Below, in pieces: positions 34,565-59,049 of a stretch of DNA of 64,000 bases. Within the stretch, counting starts at the first letter, position 1. Every line of letters begins with the position of its first letter. The notes under the pieces are model-generated. The model saw only the letters and a list, made by a program, of their open reading frames with translations. It was not told the origin of the DNA and ran no database searches. Position numbers and translations under genes: made by a program. This stretch comes from Turritopsis dohrnii (Eukaryota; Cnidaria; Hydrozoa; Anthoathecata; Oceaniidae), in contig BQMF02000200.1 of NCBI GenBank assembly GCA_027922465.2, positions 496,001 through 560,000 on the forward strand, in the 5' to 3' direction.

Positions 34565-37485
34565 ATGTATCCAGTTCAAGGTCATACTGCACCAGCTGTC
34601 GTTCAACAAGGACAAACGGTTGTCACCCAGCCTGTTTATCCAGCAGCTCCAGTCGTTGTAAACACAACACCCAGTCAGTCAAGAATGAATGTAAAAGCCA
34701 TCAGAGGTTTGGGTAAGTGCTATTGACGTTCATAAATAACAACAGCTAAAGGAAAAACTCGTAACTGATTTATAAATATCAACTGAGTTTATGCAACACC
34801 AGAGAACCTGATTTGACATACTTTTTGGCATTCTGTATTACCTCAATTTTCCTGTTGCGATCATGGACAACACGATACACACTATGTACCATTACTTTTG
34901 GCATGTTTATCTTTCATAAGGAGGGATACTGTCGAATTAGTGCGCAAAGTTGTATCTCAAACATCATAATAGTTGAGATTTTGTTGTGCAGTAAAGCAGA
35001 AATTGTTATTTCTTTCTGCACCTGTTGAAGTTCTCCAAGTAGCTGTTCATTTTGAGTTAAGAAATTGAAGATTATTTACCAGATACGTTAGCAGATTATC
35101 GCCAAGATAAGTTGTTGCTTGTAGGGCATCTCAATTGCTTTGTCAAGTCATTGTGTTAATATAGTTATTTCAATCCTACAAGTGACATCATGAAGTGAAG
35201 AAAGTTCGTAGGTAGAACCATATGTAGTAATAGATTTTCATCTTATCGCGAATCTTGTTGTTATCTCCACTTATATTCAAGTTTATAATCATCTTTTATT
35301 TTAAAGGTCGCTTTCCATAATGTAGGGCCCTACGCGCGCAGTTATTCTGAACGTAATTTCCTTTTAGACAAATGCACTAATTGTTGCGCCTTTTCAGGTA
35401 TCACACAGATTGTGATTGGAAGTCTGACAGTCGTACTCGGCATTGGCGCTATTGCGGGCTTCAGTAGTGGGTACTGGCTAACAAGAACTGGTGGAGGTAT
35501 TTGGGGTGGACTGTGGATTTTGGTGACAGGTATCATTGGGGTGTTATCAGCCGGAAGGCCAGTTAACGGATGCTTAAACGGAACGCACATGGGGTTTTGC
35601 ATCCTGGCTTCCATTGTTGCATTTCTTGATGGGATCTTTTTTGCTATTGGCATTGGGTAGGTAATCGTCAGAGTAGATTTGTTCTTAGAAAATGAACAAA
35701 AGCGAAGTGGATACAAAAGTTCAACAAAACCAACCTTTTAACTATAATAGCTGTGTAATATATCATCATCATCAATTATGCCAATTGAACGAAGGGGAGA
35801 ATGAATATCATCTCAATTTCAACGAAAATTACGATGATGGTGACATGATGTTAGGTTGAACATAGAATTTGCTTCTTGATTATAAGTTGGATTACATAAA
35901 GAAACAAATTGCAACCTCTTAAGCGTGGTTCACACGAGTCATAAAGTTGTTCTAATCGTATTGCGCATAATGAAATTTCGTAAGTTTATTCCCGTGCGAA
36001 CGTCAGCAGGTATCGAATAACTTTACGAAAAGTGGTTTTAGAACAAATTTAGAACAACTTTTGCAATCAAAAAGTTTTCATTTTAAATTTTATTCTAGAA
36101 TAACTTTCATACGCAAAATGAGTTTTTGTCAATTTTTGAAGGAGAAATGTGTTTTCGGCGAGTTTTATTTTCAAGATGGAAGAAATAAAAGGCCAAAAAG
36201 GAGAAATCGTAATAATGCCAGCTGAAGGCTAAAAGCTAGCCAAAAAAGTTAGGCTTTATGAAGTTTGACCCTTCTCATAGGGAAAGAGATAAAAATGCTT
36301 GGGAATAGTTGATGATAATAGTGTCTGCAGCGCCCTCTTTCTTCAAGAATATTTCGTTCTTTGAATTTTCGATTTCATCATCACTTCGCCTTTTTCGTGA
36401 ATGAACAAGAAGAAGCTTTCCCAAAGTGACATCCTCCATTTCGCAGATAGTTGCTTTCATAAATTTACGTCTTGAAGTTTTCAATGTGAACGTCAACAGG
36501 TACTTACGAAAATTCTACTCAAATATCTATCGTAAAGTTATTCAACTAGTTTTTCACAACTTTATGACCCATGTGAACCAAGCTTTAGGATTGGTTGGTA
36601 AATAAAGCTACCTAGATAAAATTCTTATAATTTATGTAATTTTACAAACATACGCTATGCGCTATGCTGGCTATTAAGTAATATTTTTTATCTTTATTCT
36701 AACTATAAGCTTAGTACAAAAACCCACTACCCTTGAAAGTTGCAATGCAAAGTCACTTTTGCCTGTAACAGAGAAGCTTTCCACATGCACGTATATATCA
36801 GCAATCGAAGATATGCCTCCAGTATTGTTAAACAAAAAGATGAGACGATGTATTCACTCTACGATTGCATAGAACTGCACAATTGTTTACGAACAAAAGG
36901 CCATTTAACTGACATGAAGGATCAATATCGTTGTTGTTACAGGTTCTACAGCACTTGCAAATCTGAATACAGATACTACTACAGCTTCAGCTACAACTAT
37001 CACTTGGCATACTTCGACGACCGCTGTTATGATCATAGAACGGCCGGTAGCATTGTCTACTCCATCCTTTTGCTTTTAATGATTGCTGAATTTTTCGTGG
37101 CGATAGTAGCTTCCGCTTTTTGCTGCATGGCTACAAGTTGCTGTTCGTCGTCTACACCAGGTTACGGGCTTTATCTTTATAATGATACACTGTTTCAATT
37201 CTTATCCCTAAAACAGTTTAATTGTTAGAATGTTCTGTTAACGTTGTTGATGTCAATTGACTTTTAGGAGTGATATTTATGCAGCAACCAGGTCATCATG
37301 TGGTGCAGCATCAGGCGTATCCCAACCAGCAGATGGGTGTTCCAGGTTATGGGTATCCAGAACAACCGTTCCAACAAACACCTATCACTGCGCCAGCAGC
37401 AATGACTCATTATCCAAACACTGGATACACGTATCAAGATCAGGGAGACGTAGTGAAGCTCCCACCACCGCCTTCGTATGAATAG
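34565..37485 (+). CDS. MS4A/CD20-like four-pass membrane protein, copy 3
   Basis: Exons 34565-34712, 35398-35656, 36943-37160 and 37268-37485 join in frame with GT/AG ends and give 280 residues. The exon 2 donor is read as GG|GTAGGT, the same phase as the other copies. The N-terminal tail is longer than in copy 2 and rich in P, Q and V. Spans 1-3 are GITQIVIGSLTVVLGIGAI, GGIWGGLWILVTGIIGVL and a third ending in DGIFFAIGIG. The extracellular loop holds FYSTCKSEYRYYYSF and DDRCYDHRT; span 4 is followed by CCMATSCC. The tail is glutamine- and proline-rich and ends LPPPPSYE, keeping a PPxY motif. Introns are unrelated in length to copy 2 and contain two MITEs. No lesion was seen. It is paired by sequence with pseudogene copy 4. 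Confidence 0.8.
35922..36584. mobile_element. 663-bp Harbinger-like element in intron 2 of copy 3
   Basis: Left end AGCGTGGTTCACACGAGTCA then TAAAGTTGT. The right end is the inverse of AGCTTGGTTCACATGGGTCA then TAAAGTTGT. TTA lies on both sides (35919-35921 and 36585-36587). The motif GAACGTCARCAGGTA with TTACGAAAA occurs near both ends. The 73-codon frame inside it (36275-36496, minus) has no transposase motif. Confidence 0.8.
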
Positions 37486-47133: not shown

Positions 47134-50100
47134 TTACGGTGCAGTCAAATACCGCTCTGTAATGGGGTACGCCTCTTTGCTGCTAGGAAATGTTACTGCA
47201 ACAGCAAGATGGTCACCCCGAGCGTTCTCATAAAATAACACTTCGATGAAATACGGCTGATCACTTTGAAGTTTTTGCGGTGGTGACGATAGTCGATAAT
47301 CATACATACCATTCGATGTAGGCTTGTATATTATCGAATTTTTCGTGTTTTCATCACTGCCAAAGAATAATTCGCAAACATCATCACACGCGATATGAAA
47401 TGTATGTGCACCTGTCTCAGGAGATGTAAACTTGGTCCTCAATCTTCTCCCAAACTTCTCGAAGGATGTTCCGTAGTTTGGCAAGTCCAAGTTATGGTGC
47501 CATAACACTGAATCAGGTGAATTTGGAAATCTGGGGTCGTTTTTTAGTCCTTCAAAAGAGCTAACGTCATACCATATTTCTGTTTTTACTCGGCCAGGTA
47601 CTGAAGAAAAAAAAATAAAAAGATAAAGGTATGATTTTTATATTCACTGGATAAAAACAAATGAAAAGAATTTGCATTAAATCTGACATTATCAATTTGA
47701 TCTCTTACTCTGGGATATCATATCTTCACAACAGCTGCTGAAAATTTCTTAACGTGGCTTATTAAGAATCAAGCTGAACTATTCAAATGAAGAACTAAAA
47801 CTTAGTGGCATATCCAGAGGGTCTAGACTATTCTCTAGATGTACTGCTGAACAATCATTAGACATGAAATTCATGTGTGAGAGGTTTTCTACCAAATCAA
47901 AAGCAGTTAAGGGTTAATTGCTGGTGACATGTGATGCAATTAGGAAGCTTAACAAATCTGCACCGGTTGACTTACCGTGATGCTCCAGCGTATGCATCGA
48001 ATTGACAGCGCCACATCCAGTATGGTGAAGTAGAGAATTTCCTGCAGTGAGCCAACCATTGAGTGGATGAATACAACGATCCCCATAATACAAATACTTT
48101 CCTAAGAGGTGGAAAGAAATAAATGATTCAAGTTATCTGAAGTCATTACGTTGCATTATGTTGCTTATGTTGTCTTACCGAACATAAGCAACCATTTAAA
48201 CTTAGTTGAAACTTCTGGGCAGGTTCCTAAGACAATCGGTTCACCATTTCCTCGCCGACCGTGCATTGTACAGACCCTTTTGTTTGAGCAAACGTGTAGC
48301 AAATCTCCAGTTTCTGCGTTGAATTTGAAGTCATAGACAGGATTATTGTTGCACACATCATCTAGCAAAACTTTCGTTCCATCAACCGATCCGCAACCGT
48401 CCGCTGGTTTCCAACACAAGCTGCCAAGATTGATGTGTCCACCTGGGAATATAATTAAACAGTTAAAATCGGCAAGACCGCGAGACAAAAACACCGGATT
48501 TACTGGTAGCACTTGGGAAAGAGCTAACAAAGTCAGCTGCAAAAACACTTAGCATGTTTAGGAAAGTAAGTTTGATGGATCCTACTGCGTACAATCTAGC
48601 AACAATGACGTTTGAGACTATCTTCTACTGCTTTCTGTCTTGCACATAACACTGTCTTTTGTTCTATATCAAACTGAACATTTGGTGTGTTTCTAAGCAA
48701 GCCTTATCAAATAGATTTAATTTTACTTCAATTCTTCCAAAAGGATTCTAATCAATTTAGAATAGTTGGGGTCTCGCGGAACGCTCTGTTAAAACATGGA
48801 CGTATAAAAAGAGAAGGACTTACAACTTTTATAAATCTATTCAAACAAGCTCGCCTCGCTTTATTGAAATTTTGACAAAAGCAGTTTTGAAACTCCCTCA
48901 AGTGCTGTTAAAAATACATGTTTCCATTGGCCTCCACACTAGCAGCCTTTTGTTATAAACACGAAAACTGCTGAAAAACACCAAAACTAAAAGTATGATT
49001 CCTTAGGAGTTCCTAAAGCTTCAGACTTGAAACTTTCAGAAAAGATAGATAAACTATCTCTCTGTTTTGTGTAGCTTAGGCATTTTTGAGGCGCAAATAT
49101 TAACTTCATAACATGCAGAGACGCTGTGCCATGATTTTCTTCTATTTTCACTTGTAACATCTTCTAGCAAACTCACAGACATTTTAAAAATGATTAAATA
49201 TCGTCGTCTGTGGCTTTGAACAATGAATAAAAGTGTTTTGAAAGCTAATGAGTCTTAATTCCTCTGATATTTCAGTTTTCCGCGTTGGATTGGCACGTAA
49301 GTAATCGTTCGTCTCAACAAAAATCCAGTGAAATGCGAGACGCGCTTTGGTATGAAAGGGATGCCGACACAATGGATTTTAACAATAGAATTGAATAGCT
49401 ATTGAAATGAGTTGTGAGTCCTTCTCTTTTTATACGTCCATGGTTAAAATGAGGGCTTGTTTAAACCGGCTGGCTTATTTTCGGAGTTTTTTTAAACAAA
49501 AACCGGATAAGAAATAACTTTTGTGCACACGCGAAACTCTTTTCAGTTTTCAAAGATCCTGATTATGTATCCCCATGTCAATACTTCAACTAGCTGTGTG
49601 TTATTGTGAACATCAGTTTCATTCAGACGTTTTCAGTTTTCATTTGAGAGTGATAAATGATATTATATGATATTAATATCATATTAATACGTTAAAAAAC
49701 ACTTATAAAAGTATTTGAACAAATGAGGCTAACCCGGAGCCTTACCTTCGCTAACCCAAACACATTTGCTACTGTTTATATCGCAAAAATCTGATGGTAA
49801 CAACTTGTTAAACGAACATATTGTATCTGATTGCATTCCAGCAGTTTAGTGATGCGTTCTTAAATGGTCCCTGTTTAACAAAGATAACGGTCTGTTTTGG
49901 CTTTGTGTTGCCTTATGGGAGCAATAAAACATTCTACCATAATATACTTACTGCCAGAGTAGCAGTCACACACATCCCCTTCTTCTTCGATATGAATGCA
50001 TGGACACGACCCACATGGCTTACTGCAGATGATTTTATACTGGAATAATAAGTATACACATTATCAAATTGGGAATCATCGTCAATCTATCTTTTCAAAG

Positions 50101-53100
50101 AATAGATCTTAAAATTCGTTAAATTTATCAATTAAACCATTTGAATATCTCAAGTTAACCTCCAAAATTTTTGGTACTAATTATTGTATGAAAGATTTGA
50201 CCAATACGAAAATAGATCTCCATGACTTCAATCGAAAATCAATAAGAAAACGCTTTTGATATGTTAGTCGACTAATAATATCATATAAAAAAAATGTTTT
50301 TTTTTACTTAAACTTGTATCGTCACGGTGTCTACCTTCATGTAAGATATCGAATAACCGTGGTAGAAAACAGAGATTTTATACATGTGTATAAACACACA
50401 CTTTACCTTAAAGGCCAGTTATTATTTATTATTATTATTATTAAATCATATATTTGGGATCCATTAATTACAAAATGGTTCTTCTCCCTACAACTTAAAA
50501 ATAAAAATAAAAATACTAAAATATATATCTTTATTAGTATGTAAATTAAAATATCGAGATTAAAACAAACTGAATAAAATGTAGGACACAACTTGAGAAT
50601 GTCATTGATTTGAGTACGACAATAAGAAACCTTATGAAATTAAATTGAAAGAATCTTAGCCTGGATGAACTGGGCAAATAGAGGAAATATAGCAATATGC
50701 AAGCTGGCCAAGACGCACCCTCTATAGGAGATTAACTATAAATAAACCATAAATAAATGTATAAAGAGATAAAAATTTAGATTACCACATTAAATATTTC
50801 GTATTAAAAGTTTAAAAAAATTTTATGGCAGAAATAAGATGACAAAAGTACTAGTATTCACCAAACACACTTGAAAAGGGAAGAGTAGCTTCAGCAAATC
50901 AGGAAGAATATTCCAAAGTTCTATTGCAAACGCCATATAATATTATAGAGATAAAACTCTAGCAAAAGCTCTATCACTATAATATCGTTTAGCTTCCCTG
51001 TAAAATACTTTTTTATTATTAATTACTCTAATAGCTTTTGGTAAATTATTAAAAGTATTAAAAACTTGATCATTAAAGGTGCTTTTTTCACCATGTTCAA
51101 CCATCATTTCAATATCTCTTCTAGTTGTTTTCTTAGATTCTTGTAGTTTGACAGGCAGGTATTTCGGCCAGTTTCGATCGTGTAAGGCTGAGAAGCAACA
51201 ATTTGCAATAGAAAAGTTTATTAATTCACTAATAGGTAACCAACCTAATGTTCTAATCATATCAGGTTCTTTCACGTATCGACCTAATACATAGCTAGCA
51301 ACCGTATTTTGTGTTTTTTGTAGCCGTTGAATTTGATACTTTGGTAGCTGACTGTATACTACTAAGCAATATCTAATTTTGATATAATCAAAGTTTCAGC
51401 CAGAGATTTACGAACTTTATATGGTGTGAAGCGTTTAAATTGACGAAGACTTCTAAGTGTCGCATAAGAAGATTGAATTACATTATTTACGTGACATGAC
51501 CAGGATAGGTTTTCATCAAAATGAATTCCCAGAATCTTTTTTGTAGTAACTCTTTCAATACGTTTGCCATTATGCATTACTTTAAGGTTTTCGTTGATTA
51601 GATTATGTCTCTTGCTTAGTTGAGTAGTTGAGAATAGCATAAACTTTGTTTTAGGGTCATTGAAGACCAAGCTGTTATTAGAAGACCATGTTGATACAGT
51701 TCTTAGGTCAGATTCTAATTCTTCTATACATTTTGTTAGATTTTTCGGTTTTGAATGTTTGTATAGGGTGGAATCATCAGCATATTGTAAGGTGTCACAG
51801 GTAACATTCTCTGCAAGATCAATTGTTTCCAGTTCATTTCCTTATTCGTTGCGACTGAACAAACTACAGTTTAGATAAGCTTAGTAGCTTGAGTGATTTG
51901 AAATGGTAGGCAAATTAAATTGCTTCCGCCGATCATAACCCAGCTCATATGCCAGTTCATATGAACCGGAAACTTGATGAACGCAACATCAAAGGCAGAA
52001 CACAAAGTGATGAGACATTTGCATGGGTGACCTTATAAAATTTTGTCTCGGTTAACTTCCTCCAACAGACTTGGAATTAAACATTTTTAGCACTTTTCTT
52101 TTGTGTAAAGCTCATAAAATGTTCATCTTAACTGCTTGCTGTAAAAAGGTCTCGTTAGCCGCTATAACTGGGTTTTCAACAAAAATAATATATGAGGTGA
52201 TTTAGAAACAGCGGAAATCTGGGATTTCACCGAGAGGTGCCAAGGTCGCACACGAAATGTACGCCGGGTAAAGCAGTCGTGTTTTTTAGCTGTTTTGTTC
52301 AGTTGCATTCTGTTTCAGTAAATTGGCGTGTATCAAGAAATAACGAAAGTCTCCATTACAACCGCTAGCTTATCTGACATTTTCTCTTCAAACTTTTTCG
52401 TCAAAAAACAAAGCGTTTCTTGATATTCGTTTGACGCATAATAATATTAGTTCAAAATAATCTTTCCATCGTTTCTTAAAAGGTTTGAGCAACTGTTATC
52501 TTTGAATTGTTTGAAGGCAAATCTAAATATATTGTGACTCAGAAAAACTTTCATTTTCTACATTTGCTGAATTGTTCTGAAAAAATATATTTGAAAAATC
52601 TTGAAAGAAATCTTGTATCTTGGCGGGCCCTACCTGCCCTAACAGTTTCTTTAATGTGCTCCAGCTAACAAAACAAATTTCTTAAAGGTTGTGAGGTATA
52701 GGTCACTGGAGAGGACGTTGTTATTCTTATCAAACTCAAAAATTGATAACCACATCATAAAATTTTCATAATGTGTTTAACATATGTATGTACGCACACA
52801 ATATGTACTCATGGTACTTTATAAACACACAACCAAGTTTGTATGAATATGTTATTCAAAACTAACCAAATGAATAAAGTTTACGTGAATTACAAATTAT
52901 GAAGTCCTTTTGCATGACGCCATTATATCAGGTATGGAGTGTTGAAAGGGAACATTTATCATAGTTATTTGATCTCCTTAATGCATCACATAGCTACCGC
53001 AATGAAGCGAGAAAAACCATCATTTAAAATGTTTCAATGACATTCAAGAATTTCATAAATAAAATTGATATTTTCACAGCAATTTAGAACAGGGTTAAAA

Positions 53101-54284
53101 CCACCCAAAGCCAATTATTAATAGCATTGCATTGTGGTTGATTTTCAATGTATTTAAGAGATATCTTATAACAAATGTCATTAATATCAACCAGTGCCCT
53201 TTGGACTAATTTGGTTAGAAAGCTCTGCGAAGGAGTACATTTCTATATAAATGTACACACTATTTCAATGAAAATGCTCTTTGTTGTAGTGACTTTATGA
53301 CTTTGCTGTCTGCAATCTCATAACAGTACTGCTTATCTATTGGTTCAATTATATTGCGGTTACCACATTCTGCCTTCTGTCGATTAAGTATTGAAGAAGT
53401 CTCTATATGACTCCCATGGATATCTACAAATAGCCACTGAATGACAATACAAAGTGTACATCGTAACCTATAAATAATATCTCGAATCATCTCATAGGGC
53501 AAAATAGTGTCACCGAAACGTCGAGAATTTTTTACTGAAAGAACGTGCATACTTCTGTAGAGATGTACTACTTTGCAGTGATTTTTCAGAAAAAGTTGGG
53601 ATATGTTATGTCACTAATTGCGCGTTTTCAAAAGTATTTGTACAAACCACAGTGAGATATACCGAATAAATTGCTTTGTAGTTTGCTTAAAATATCTCAA
53701 ATAACATCTTCACATATTTGCGAGTTAAAAACTATAAAATCTGTAAACCTTTGTCAAAATGATGATGAAAAAATATTCTTAATATTTCAAACACAGACCT
53801 TTAGACACGATAATTTGGTCACAATGATGAGTTAAAACAAAAATTGGAGAAAGGTTTATTTACTTTCCCTTTCTGTTACTTCTTATCGAAACTGCATAGC
53901 GATACTCACCAAAGGTTTGTGTCTCCACACTTCATTGGTTAGGGTGAAACCAGTATCGTAATAAGCATATCCCCCTTTATTGACAAACTTGTCAGATTCT
54001 GATTTACTGTTTCGGTCGACATCAAGAAGTGAACATTTCTGTAAGTGGTTGTTGACGTAGAAAGACTGACAGGTCGGATTTGAAAGACACTGCCTTGCAC
54101 AACAAGATGATTCACAGTTGATATGATTTGCAATCGGTGTCTTGTTTAGTATTCGATTATTCACGATTCTCCGAAACAGCGCCCTCTTTTCCTTTTCATT
54201 TCTCGTTATTCCATACTCAGGCATTTTGATTCCGTTGGCATTTTGAATCCATAGTAGCGACACAAAAGCTGCCAAAACCTTCAT
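47134..54284 (-). CDS. Secreted PAN-EGF-lectin-PA14 multidomain protein
   Basis: Five minus-strand exons join in frame with GT/AG ends: 53910-54284, 49952-50039, 48179-48442, 47976-48101 and 47134-47600, giving 439 residues. Exon 1 encodes a signal peptide (MKVLAAFVSLLWIQNANG) and a PAN/apple-type domain (CCARQCLSNPTCQSFYV, later CSLLD and GGYAYYDTG). Exon 2 is a six-cysteine EGF-like module (CSKPCGSCPC...VCDC). Exons 3-4 form a cysteine-rich lectin-like part (LCWKPADGCGS; DRCIHPLNGW; HTGCG), perhaps half of a ricin-B-type trefoil. Exon 5 is a PA14-type domain (LRTKFTSPETGAHTFHI, CDDVCELFFGSD, YFIEVLFYEN) and ends in TAA. PAN, lectin and PA14 modules bind carbohydrate or protein outside the cell, so extracellular recognition is likely. 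The upstream Met at 54335 is possible, but the downstream one gives a clean signal peptide. Confidence 0.75.
48789..49449. mobile_element. ~660-bp inverted-repeat element in intron 2 of the PA14 gene
   Basis: TTAAAACATGGACGTATAAA then AAGAGAAGGACTTACAAC at the left, and its inverse with four mismatches at 49408-49447. It lies between EGF exon 2 and lectin exon 3. No transposase motif. Confidence 0.6.
49698..49800 (+). repeat. Dispersed repeat, pair with 46436
   Basis: Both copies flank the 3' half of the PA14 gene in the same orientation. Confidence 0.5.
50640..51860 (-). mobile_element. 5'-truncated non-LTR retrotransposon (CR1/L2-like)
   Basis: Minus-strand reverse transcriptase remains begin with LQYADDSTLYKHS near 51790, containing the catalytic YADD box. 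KKILGIHFDENLSWSCHV (near 51530), the thumb region FTPYKVRKSLAETLIISKLD, and after a frame break near 51355, TLGWLPISELINFSIANCCF and LHDRNWPKYLPV follow. This order is that of CR1/L2/Rex-type LINEs. There is no endonuclease or N-terminal part, and about 300 bp of possible 3' untranslated DNA follows. It sits in intron 1 of the PA14 gene and is inactive. Confidence 0.75.
51880..53190. other. Intron 1 remainder of the PA14 gene
   Basis: No exon-like frame or clear inverted repeat was seen. Confidence 0.35.
53191..53312. repeat. 115-bp hairpin MITE family, copy k
   Basis: Preserves CTGCGAAGGAGTACATTTCT and a mutated right arm (TGTAGTGACTTTATGACTTT). Confidence 0.55.
53521..53600. repeat. 115-bp hairpin MITE family, copy l (partial)
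   Basis: The right part only, ending TTTGCAGTGATTTTTCAG. Confidence 0.45.
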
Positions 54285-54359
54285 TTTAGTCTCTATACAA
54301 CTATCTAATATCACAACATAAAACCACAGGAACATTTTCTGATGTTATCTATTTAGTGT

Positions 54360-55705: not shown

Positions 55706-56960
55706 CAATCTTCCGACAAAAAAGTTGCAAAGTATTAAAAAATTGAGACAATTGATTTAGCTATATTTCAGTCGTCTGCTGGTGGCATTTTCATATTTTC
55801 AACGAGAAACGAGTGTCACATAGCGGACAAGCTCAAAATACACAGACTATAACATTGTACCAAATGCCATGCATCCTTGTATATCGATGATCTTCCAGAT
55901 TACGCCATTTTCAGCATTCTCAACAGAGTAGCGTGGAAAGTACCTCCAGTAATTGCAATACACAATTTTCACGCTATTTGCCGAAATGCTTCAGGAAATA
56001 ATCTGAACATTATGAGAAACAAAGGCTTAAATTTGTCAAAATTTTTAAAGATTGCATACATTTCTTATATTTTGAATCAGTGATTGTAATTTCTTTTCTC
56101 TACTTTTGGCGACTTTTTCGTAACATGCAAAATGCTGAGAATTAAGCGGATAACAGGTTAAGAAATTTTAAATATCCACAGGACATCATTTATTATTCTT
56201 TTTGTTGATTAAAACATTTGCCAGTATCAAGATATCAAACAAAGAAACAAGTTTTAAAGTGAAGCAGAAGCTTGTAACATAACACTGATGGTGTTGATGA
56301 TGTTCTTATTTTTGCTTTGCTTCATCTTATTGATTCATCGCAATGTTTTCCCCTCTGGCAAAGCAATACCTTTTAAATCATTTTGCATCACTATATTGAT
56401 TTTCTTTACAAACCGTACGACGTTGCAGACTGTGGTTTTTCTGAATGTCAGCAAAAACATTTCAGAACAAATAAGGATGGAATGGAAGCGCATTAGATAA
56501 AAAGGCAAATTTTCATTGACCAAGATTTAGTAATAACACCTCTGATTTATGTAAGTTTTCTTCAGTGATTTTTATTTGCATCTACCACAGCAGACACACA
56601 ATGTTACCGCAAGGTTTGGGAGTTACGTTAACATCAGTATCCAGTATCCATTACTTTTCGTTTCTTTACAAAAAATTTTCAAAACAACAAAACTAGCATG
56701 AACATGGAACTAAAAGTTACTCCTTCAAGTTACGAAAATTGACATGGCATGAGCACAGGTCCTAATAGAAAGAACGAAAACGGAAATAACGTATAAAATA
56801 AAGTGCTAACCATCAGAAAAAAAATCAGATCTAGTATTAAGTAGAGTTAGTGAGTCTTCCTTTGGCAGATGACTAATTTCTAGATTTGCACATATGAAAT
56901 TGATACCTTGGTGAAGCTTATTTATTTTACAATAGTTGAATGTTGTGTAAGTTTTCAAAA

Positions 56961-59049
56961 TTAAAGTACTTTTTTCGATTTAAGTTTCTTCATTAAATCA
57001 TTAAGGCAGTGTTCAACTGATCCCGATCTGCCTTTTGCTGTGTACTCCGTTTTGATTCCAGTGCAGATATCGAGGCATTTTCCAATGTATTTCCACTGTA
57101 TTCCCTTTACTCGGAAGGACCATTTAATCTTGCATCCTTTACCACGCTCTATCTAAATAAACATATTTGCAACCGCATTGGATCACAGATCGTATCATAA
57201 TGAGTTTTCGTATACGCTCGATATACCGATATACCGGGTGAGTCAAAAAAAGTACCGTTGTTTCACAAAACGTATCTTTCGATTGACTAATTATGAAAGC
57301 TAGTGTGTTTTATTTCTGAATAGAGGAATCATTTACCTACATTTTGGTGTATCATTTGTCATATTTGGTTGAGTAGAAAAAAAGTTATGGGCAAAAAACT
57401 GGAGGTGGTCCTTGTAAAAATTCTCGAAAATGACAAAAAAAGCTGAACAAAACTTCTCGAAACTGGAAACTGGATACATACCCAAATTCTTTGTTGTAAC
57501 GTGAGTTGTGGCATTTTTTACAAAACAGTCTTTATAAAAAACTTCATCAAGTAAAGTTTTAATAAAATTTTGAAAAAAGTTTGAACTTTTTACTTAATTT
57601 AAGCATTGGGAATTAAAAAAATAAGTTTTAGCACATTGAAGCGTGTATGAGTTTCAATCCCATACGGTTTGCAATAAGAACAGAAAATCTTGTTTGGAGA
57701 AGTTTTGTTTAGATATTTTCGTCATTTTTCGACGATTTTTACAAGGACCACCTCCAGTTTTTTGCCCATAACTTTTTTTCTACTCAACCAAATTTGATAA
57801 ATGATACACCAAAATGTAGGTAAAGGATTCCTCTATTCAGAAATAAAAAATACTAGCTTTCATAATTAGTCAATCGAAAGATACGTTTTGTGAAACAACG
57901 GCGCTTTTTTTTGACTCACCCGGTAGTGAACGTTTCAGTTCGTACTATGGAGAGTTTTATGAGGGCATTTCAAAAGGAAGTCAAGAAGAGCCTGTTGAGA
58001 CGTTCGTGAAATCGTGACTTTCCAATATTGAGACTTAATGTGATATTATGTACGGTGGAGTGCAGGAAAAGATTTAAAGGGTTGCCATTATTAGGGAGCA
58101 TTCAGGAATACGTCCTCATGACGGGCAGGTGATTTAAGGACACTGGCATAAGTAGAGTGTTACTTACATTAAAACATTATAACATAACAAAATGCAAATA
58201 GTAGGTTACCTCTCCCTCGCCATTAAGACCAGGAATGATATCTGCTATTTCTATTGCCTCTTTGTTTCTCTCCTCCAGACGTTCACTATCAGATTTTCCT
58301 TTACGAGAATGAAAATATAGAAATTGTGAAACACTCATACCTATGAAGATTATTGGCAATATTAAACAATTGGGAATAAAACGTTTTGAACACCTGATTG
58401 TATATTGGTACCGTCGCGCCCTTCACCATCATCTATCTGTTCAAAAAGAAACATATTTATAACGTAATGGATGCCAAATGGCGACCTAATGAATTTTTTT
58501 TAATACATACATTAAGCGTGTTTTCAATATACTGAACCTTTCACTGAAAGAAAACAATGACCGGTGGATGATTGAAGAACACTGGCACAAATAGAGTCTT
58601 GCAAATTCACGTAATTCACGTAATAAAAAGCAACAAAGTTGAAGATTTTACCTCTCCGTTGCCAAGAAATCCCATGATGATACTTTGAAATTTTTCTACA
58701 GTTTTATATACGTTGACAAACGTATTCAGCGATTGAAGATCTGAGTATGATCAAAGAAATGTTTCAATATTTTCCATGATTAACATTATTCATATGAAAC
58801 AATACAGATTATTTAATGTGGAACAAGCACTAGTAAGGACATTGAGTTGATGTAGCATGTTGCCTGCCAGTATGTTGTATAAGCGTCATCACAGATCAGT
58901 TGGAAACTCATAAATAAAACTTTATTTCAGTCATTGAATCCTGTAAGACCTTGCCTTTCACATGTATCAAAAACACTGAAGTACTCACGACCACATGCCA
59001 GAACAACTAATGTGTTAACCAATGTTATTAATACTTCTTTACACTGCAT
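56961..59049 (-). CDS. Small secreted protein with ALF-like C-terminal domain
   Basis: Five minus-strand exons join in frame with GT/AG ends: 58989-59049, 58652-58740, 58394-58436, 58210-58298 and 56961-57152, giving 157 residues. Exon 1 is a signal peptide (MQCKEVLITLVNTLVVLACG). Exons 2-4 are polar and end in G/E-rich words (GFLGNGE, PGLNGEGE). The last exon gives residues 95-157 with cysteines at 101, 120, 124 and 143. It contains WKYIGKC and, after a short gap, GRSGSVEHCLNDLM. The order C-x-n-WKYxGK-C-x-n-RSGxVEH is that of the anti-lipopolysaccharide factor family of arthropod host-defence peptides, where the loop between the two cysteines binds lipid A. Here two additional cysteines are present. 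A secreted microbe-binding role is inference. A 690-bp MITE lies in intron 4. Confidence 0.65.
57234..57923. mobile_element. 690-bp element with ~210-bp inverted arms
   Basis: Begins CCGGGTGAGTCAAAAAAAGT and ends with its inverse, flanked by TA (57232-57233 and 57924-57925). The arms stay nearly complementary for about 210 bp, including GGAGGTGGTCCTTGTAAAAA. A TA target and CCGGGTGAG-type ends suggest a Tc1/mariner relative. It sits in intron 4 of the ALF-like gene. Confidence 0.85.
58100..58790. repeat. Intragenic tandem duplication (exons 2-3 to exons 4-5)
   Basis: DNA left of exon 4 (58105-58209) aligns with DNA left of exon 2 (58555-58651): GGACACTGGCATAAGTAGAG against GAACACTGGCACAAATAGAG, then TTACCTCTCC in both. 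Exons 2 and 4 have equal length (89 nt). The DNA right of exon 3 (ATCTGTTCAAAAAGAAACAT then ATTT) resembles that right of exon 5 (ATCTAAATAAACATATTT). Confidence 0.7.

Follow-up and report, generated by a model that had tools for sequence, protein, structure and literature searches.

Among described systems, the anti-lipopolysaccharide factors (ALFs) of Limulus, crabs and shrimps (Pfam family PF11630; 2job) come closest to the predicted product of a gene on the minus strand of a 64,000-nucleotide stretch of the Turritopsis dohrnii genome (contig BQMF02000200.1, positions 496,001 to 560,000), hereafter the window. The host is a cnidarian, as the initial annotation of the stretch had supposed from its letters. 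With ALFs the window protein would share a basic character, a four-stranded sheet with a helix, a cationic hairpin bracketed by cysteines and an N-terminal helix. However, ALFs have two cysteines, with 20 residues between them in the hairpin, and two C-terminal helices, whereas the window protein has four cysteines, with 22 residues between those of the hairpin, a single predicted C-terminal helix, a duplicated exon for the N-terminal helix and a cnidarian host, and stays below the PF11630 cut-off. We read the product as a small, secreted protein that serves host defence and is homologous to arthropod ALFs, with a lipopolysaccharide (LPS)-binding hairpin and one helix exon used per transcript, and assign this reading a probability of about 0.6.

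Passages of a review (PMC11767717) describe ALFs as arthropod immune peptides, aurelin as a six-cysteine two-helix peptide and arminins as alpha-helical peptides; the latter two are also defence peptides, of jellyfish and Hydra, with an architecture unlike that of the window protein. The scygonadins (SCYs) of mud crab, which are related to ALFs, share with it the Pfam family PF11630 and a three-exon layout, as excerpts of one study report three-exon genes, with three exons and two introns in most SCYs (PMC10053787). The same excerpts give SCYs as anionic, with an isoelectric point (pI) of 4.9-6.9, whereas the window protein has a computed pI of 9.4-9.8. PF11630 is not confined to arthropods in annotation, since an extract of a further paper assigns it to one gene of the bdelloid rotifer Adineta vaga (PMC12220480). 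Among the literature matches listed, no title or beginning of an abstract names an ALF from a cnidarian or a bivalve, which does not show absence from print.

The core exon and its kinship with ALFs

The last exon of the gene and the features belonging to it are the following.

56961..57152, minus strand: exon 5, the ALF-like four-cysteine core with its stop codon, predicted as four strands and a C-terminal helix
57063..57134, minus strand: codons of the cationic hairpin from C7 to C30, net charge +5, proposed counterpart of the LPS-binding loop of ALFs
57009..57011, minus strand: codon for the additional cysteine of the C-terminal helix, C48, with C26 (57077-57075) as proposed partner
56921..56926, minus strand: polyadenylation signal AATAAA, about 35 bases past the stop of exon 5

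Translation of the minus strand from 57152 to 56961 gives IERGKGCKIKWSFRVKGIQWKYIGKCLDICTGIKTEYTAKGRSGSVEHCLNDLMKKLKSKKVL and a stop codon, that is a core of 63 residues with the motifs WKYIGKC and GRSGSVEHC and cysteines at residues 7, 26, 30 and 48, directly preceded by a consensus acceptor (tttatttag). The initial annotation had picked out WKYxGK, a cysteine and RSGSVEH in the last exon, together with four cysteines instead of two, and both are found in this open frame. The corresponding motifs of what we take to be the Limulus ALF sequence are WKYKGK and RSGAVEH. Judged by its relatives, exon 5 is no chance open reading frame (ORF), since a search of the same genome with the window query returned nine of them at E values of 8.6e-31 to 1.1e-5.

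The Pfam search, the family profile and the fold comparison each support the earlier ALF-like reading of this domain. PF11630 is the only Pfam family matched by the spliced window model up to E 1, with scores of 21.9 bits for the model joining exons 1, 2 and 5 (1-2-5; E 2e-4), 21.4 for 1-4-5 and 20.4 for exon 5 alone. The proposed profile match is thus present, but none of the window models reaches the gathering cut-off of 25 bits. None of the five paralog models matched PF11630. Among nine homologs scanned for it, Saccostrea P0018 (E 0.013) matched weakly, as did P0025 (E 0.0017), both to one and the same part of the profile, and seven had no match. Searching the Turritopsis genome with PF11630 gave no match at E <= 0.001, a zero that shows nothing because the 14 control genomes were silent as well (0/14).

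A family hidden Markov model (HMM) was built from 28 sequences pooled from alignments A5, A7 and A2, after removal of duplicates and of rows shorter than 55 residues. Against the Limulus ALF core, to which Pfam gives 77 bits for PF11630, this model scored 29.7 bits; of 10,000 shuffled sequences, 5,000 from either of two ALFs, none exceeded 18.8. Removal of the three window-derived rows left 28.4 bits against a shuffle best of 19.1, and the ALF link therefore belongs to the whole family, beyond the window copy. The shrimp ALFPm3 was not found by the family HMM, while hhalign aligned a two-row ALF alignment with A5 at 55% probability (P 1.2e-4).

The predicted model of exon 5 has a predicted local distance difference test (pLDDT) value of 89.6 and superposes on shrimp ALF with 1.6 A over 62 residues. 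Three helices packed on a four-stranded sheet had been anticipated; the sheet and the superposition agree with this, but a single C-terminal helix is predicted where ALF has two, the secondary structure being EEEE-H for exon 5 and H-EEEE-H for the relative P0002. Foldseek by itself returned no match at E <= 1e-3, and neither the family profile nor the window model found ALF in the PDB by sequence. What weighs against ALF kinship is that domains binding double-stranded RNA (dsRNA) score slightly above ALF in the fold comparison of the predicted core, so that this core might derive from a dsRNA-binding domain, or from another alpha/beta fold, as a secreted branch with a convergent likeness to ALF. 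We consider this very improbable, as ALF shows 23% identity in that comparison against 5-18% in the other 49 rows, the window models match PF11630 and no dsRNA-binding Pfam family up to E 1, and the profile-level link to ALF is independent of fold. Profiles and predicted model together support well the kinship of the window protein with ALFs, below the formal Pfam cut-off; formally, by that cut-off and by its number of cysteines, the protein is no ALF.

The strands at residues 7-16 and 21-28 of the model would bring residue 7 to face residue 30 if the hairpin is symmetric, and C7-C30 (C1-C3) is probably the ALF-type disulfide. From certain cysteines being lost together in alignment A7, we infer C26-C48 (C2-C4) as the added disulfide. 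This alignment has 19 rows, of which 17 cover the C1 and C3 positions once the truncated P0023 and P0025 are set aside. C1 and C3 are both present in 4/17 and both missing in 13/17; four rows have C2 and C4 but neither C1 nor C3, and nine lack C1, C3 and C4, eight of them retaining C2 and P0026 having no cysteine at all. As the rows are related, these counts may reflect one or two losses and are not independent evidence. The hairpin cysteines enclose 24 residues in each of three measured paralogs, 22 in the window protein and 20 in ALFPm3; hairpin spacing thus changes in even steps, which keeps the register.

Gene structure and the duplicated helix exon

Upstream of the core the gene contains the following features, described with reference to a sister copy on contig C147 (locus L013).

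58989..59049, minus strand: exon 1, with start codon and the signal-peptide-like MQCKEVLITLVNTLVVLACG; donor gtgagt, ending in phase 1
58652..58740, minus strand: exon 2, helix exon copy A, HLQSLNTFVNVYKTVEKFQSIIMGFLGNGE; 89 nt, phase 1 in and phase 0 out, bounded by cag and gtaaaa
58394..58436, minus strand: micro-exon 3, doubtful; 43 nt, would make 1-2-3-4-5 in-frame
58210..58298, minus strand: exon 4, helix exon copy B, (R)KSDSERLEERNKEAIEIADIIPGLNGEGE; 89 nt, phase 1 in and phase 0 out
57232..57925, no strand assigned: inverted-repeat element in the last intron; arms of 186 nt, 95% complementary, TA flanks, absent from the C147 copy

The signal peptide proposed ahead of the core corresponds to exon 1, whose first 20 residues are hydrophobic, with a grand average of hydropathy (GRAVY) of 1.45; the assignment was judged by this hydrophobic run alone. 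At the same position the C147 copy reads MQCKEALRLVIALAFLARG, and the first exons of the paralogs at loci L017 and L019, MQENKHLRFLICFIVLAILSG and MQENKHLSFLICFIVVAILSG, resemble it as well, the former having its donor in the same phase.

The comparison of nucleotides indicates that the exon for the N-terminal helix is duplicated in the window gene. The 3' end of exon 2 with the intron downstream aligns to the matching part of exon 4 and its intron with a local score of 52, the best of 500 dinucleotide shuffles reaching 33, and the sequence that follows exon 2 in the C147 copy matches, over 67 nt, the one that follows exon 4 in the window (82%, E 1.9e-12). Exon 2 itself is 76% identical to L013 over 29 residues. 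Exons 1, 2, 4 and 5 are open and bounded by GT-AG splice sites, and the predicted joins 1-2-5 and 1-4-5 are in-frame, each giving an open protein of 113 residues, while 1-2-4-5 is out of frame. Since exons 2 and 4 have identical phases, 1 on entry and 0 on exit, we infer that one or the other is used per transcript, the reading frames favouring one helix exon copy at a time. Use of both exons in series as the main model was rejected because their direct join shifts the frame and only the doubtful exon 3 restores it. Micro-exon 3 lies mostly inside 140 alignment columns missing from L013, which makes it doubtful, and on these grounds it is probably unused. The missing columns span 58295-58440, where exon 4 begins, and have GTGAA at either end; the element at 57232-57925 has the appearance of an insertion of the miniature inverted-repeat transposable element type.

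The gene might also be dying or dead, an unexpressed duplicate. In the C147 copy, which aligns with gaps to window positions 59228-55652, a TGA interrupts the core exon and exon 2 has lost 5 nt close to its end, and the window copy itself carries the inverted-repeat insertion and the extra sequence at exon 4. Against this stand the open exons, GT-AG sites, in-frame joins and polyadenylation signal of the window copy, and we regard a dead gene as quite improbable. The core exon also differs from the C147 copy slightly less than the introns do (12/191 against 69/822), a difference that is not significant (Fisher p 0.38). Exons 1, 2 and 4 (58210-59049) differ from L013 at 30/219 aligned bases, above the introns (Fisher p 0.027); the N-terminal part is possibly changing fast, on small counts and against a comparison copy that is broken.

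Relatives, charge and proposed function

The genome contains at least ten such core exons, and two different queries recovered the same ten: a single one on the window contig (C200) and on C147, three on C124, three on C183 and two on C640. Two weak matches stand outside this count, with E 0.48 on C93 and E 1.3 on C52; the former (L022:3135-3266), at its genome-wide E value, contains several stops, looks decayed and is perhaps an old dead copy. Contamination was set aside as an explanation, given a contig of 705 kb and ten core exons spread over five contigs. One C124 copy has a stop within its match. Helix exons were located at six paralog loci (L014, L016, L017, L018, L019 and L020), not at L015 and L021, and signal exons at L017 and L019; an extra candidate at L019:1159-1100 is perhaps part of the L020 gene. 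The complete paralog gene at L017 consists of three exons, for signal, single helix and core. Copies on C124, C183 and C640 pair up, their longest matching pieces being 87-98% identical, and some may therefore be alleles.

Outside this genome, a single-sequence query with the window model returned two candidates from the protein database, none at E <= 1, and database relatives were reached only through alignments that included paralogs. The family profile search gave 28 proteins at E <= 10 from 3,378 candidates, 25 of them at E <= 1e-12; six of the 28 were query rows (P0001-P0005 and P0010). All profile matches with a named organism are bivalves (Mytilus, Ostrea, Crassostrea, Magallana and Saccostrea), and no cnidarian occurs among them in a search that sees only relatives sharing short words. 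Of 35 pattern matches in bacterial and archaeal genomes none was confirmed, and therefore no bacterial source was seen.

A bivalve parallel, the uncharacterized Saccostrea echinata P0018 (LOC133188844), shares all four cysteines with the window protein, begins with a hydrophobic stretch and is 52% identical in the core; its cysteines are spaced 20-3-18, like those of the Turritopsis paralogs, whereas the window protein has 18-3-18, and its charge is near neutral (+2). In A7, C1 and C3 are absent from the remaining named bivalve members, some of which lack C4 as well. P0009, P0021 and P0022, bivalve or unnamed predictions, leave the family alignment just ahead of the core, at (I/F)DRG, which suggests that the intron position is a common one. 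In a tree of 18 cores the two ALFs split from the remainder at 100/100, while the Turritopsis rows formed one clade in 36% of 200 bootstrap trees, so that their monophyly is not shown; the long branches are those of the window row (0.69), ALFPm3 and P0026. In a bivalve sub-branch (P0001, P0004, P0013 and P0015) the models start with Met, lack a signal peptide and contain a single cysteine; here the fold may have become intracellular, unless the models miss a first exon.

Charges were computed after residue 20, with assumed cleavage sites. The window protein has a charge of +11 and a pI of 9.8 as 1-2-5, and +7 and 9.4 as 1-4-5, compared with +9 and pI 10.0 for ALFPm3, +2, +3 and 0 for three Turritopsis paralogs, +2 for P0018 and +3 for P0002; the window copy is thus the most cationic family member measured. 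The helix from exon 2 has a GRAVY of 0.08 and charge 0, that from exon 4 a GRAVY of -1.17 and charge -4, and the N-terminal part of ALFPm3 a GRAVY of 0.00 and charge 0.

On sequence and model, the window product is most likely a secreted ALF-like antibacterial protein. In the mechanism that we propose, the hairpin C7-C30, held shut by the equivalent of the ALF disulfide, would bind the phosphates of bacterial lipid A through its Lys/Arg side chains, and the amphipathic N-terminal helix and aromatic residues would then disturb the membrane. The second disulfide, C26-C48, would fix the helix to the sheet, and exon choice would yield either the +11 form, whose helix is the more hydrophobic, or the +7 form, whose helix is acidic and hydrophilic. 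A secreted protein of ALF fold could instead serve a structural, signalling or symbiont-managing role, its charge being incidental: the near-neutral paralogs (0 to +3) and the signal-less, one-cysteine bivalve members, whose models may miss a first exon, leave the family not clearly tied to secretion or LPS. We hold such a role to be unlikely, as the window copy is strongly basic, hairpin included (+5), on a long branch, as would be expected for a diverging defence effector.

Turritopsis dohrnii is a jellyfish known for life-cycle reversal, a process during which its antibacterial defences are of interest. The four-cysteine core is possibly a more cross-linked LPS-binding scaffold. Four-cysteine ALF homologs in a hydrozoan and in bivalves, if true, would mean an earlier origin of the fold, or transfer. 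A tentative and somewhat doubtful extension would make ALFs one branch of an old animal secreted fold, with a four-cysteine branch in cnidarians and bivalves, and the window locus a true LPS-binding antibiotic with mutually exclusive helix exons.

Other observations in the window and genome

On contig C880 (G000:C880:1-7500, L035) a CCCTAA array that resembles a telomere and extends for about 3.7 kb, CCTAAC occurring 619 times within the initial 3,720 bases, runs directly into a mitochondrial-type nad4-cob-cox1 stretch, in which cox1 shifts frame internally, followed by ORFs resembling mobile elements. The stretch reads well in code 4, AGR codons being arginines where code 5 gives serines, and its gene order is one that we take to be medusozoan. 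This cox1 is the sole cox1 match in the assembly, and the stretch is therefore probably a piece of mitochondrial DNA that was captured at the end of a chromosome.

In the window, a neighbouring minus-strand ORF (53883-54344) has a signal-like start and a PAN domain above cut-off (E 2.8e-6). Three matches fall below their cut-offs: a weak PA14 domain at 47134-47637 (E 1.1e-4), a CD20-like ORF at 35289-35660 (E 3.3e-4) and reverse-transcriptase remains at 51362-51841 (E 4.5e-5).
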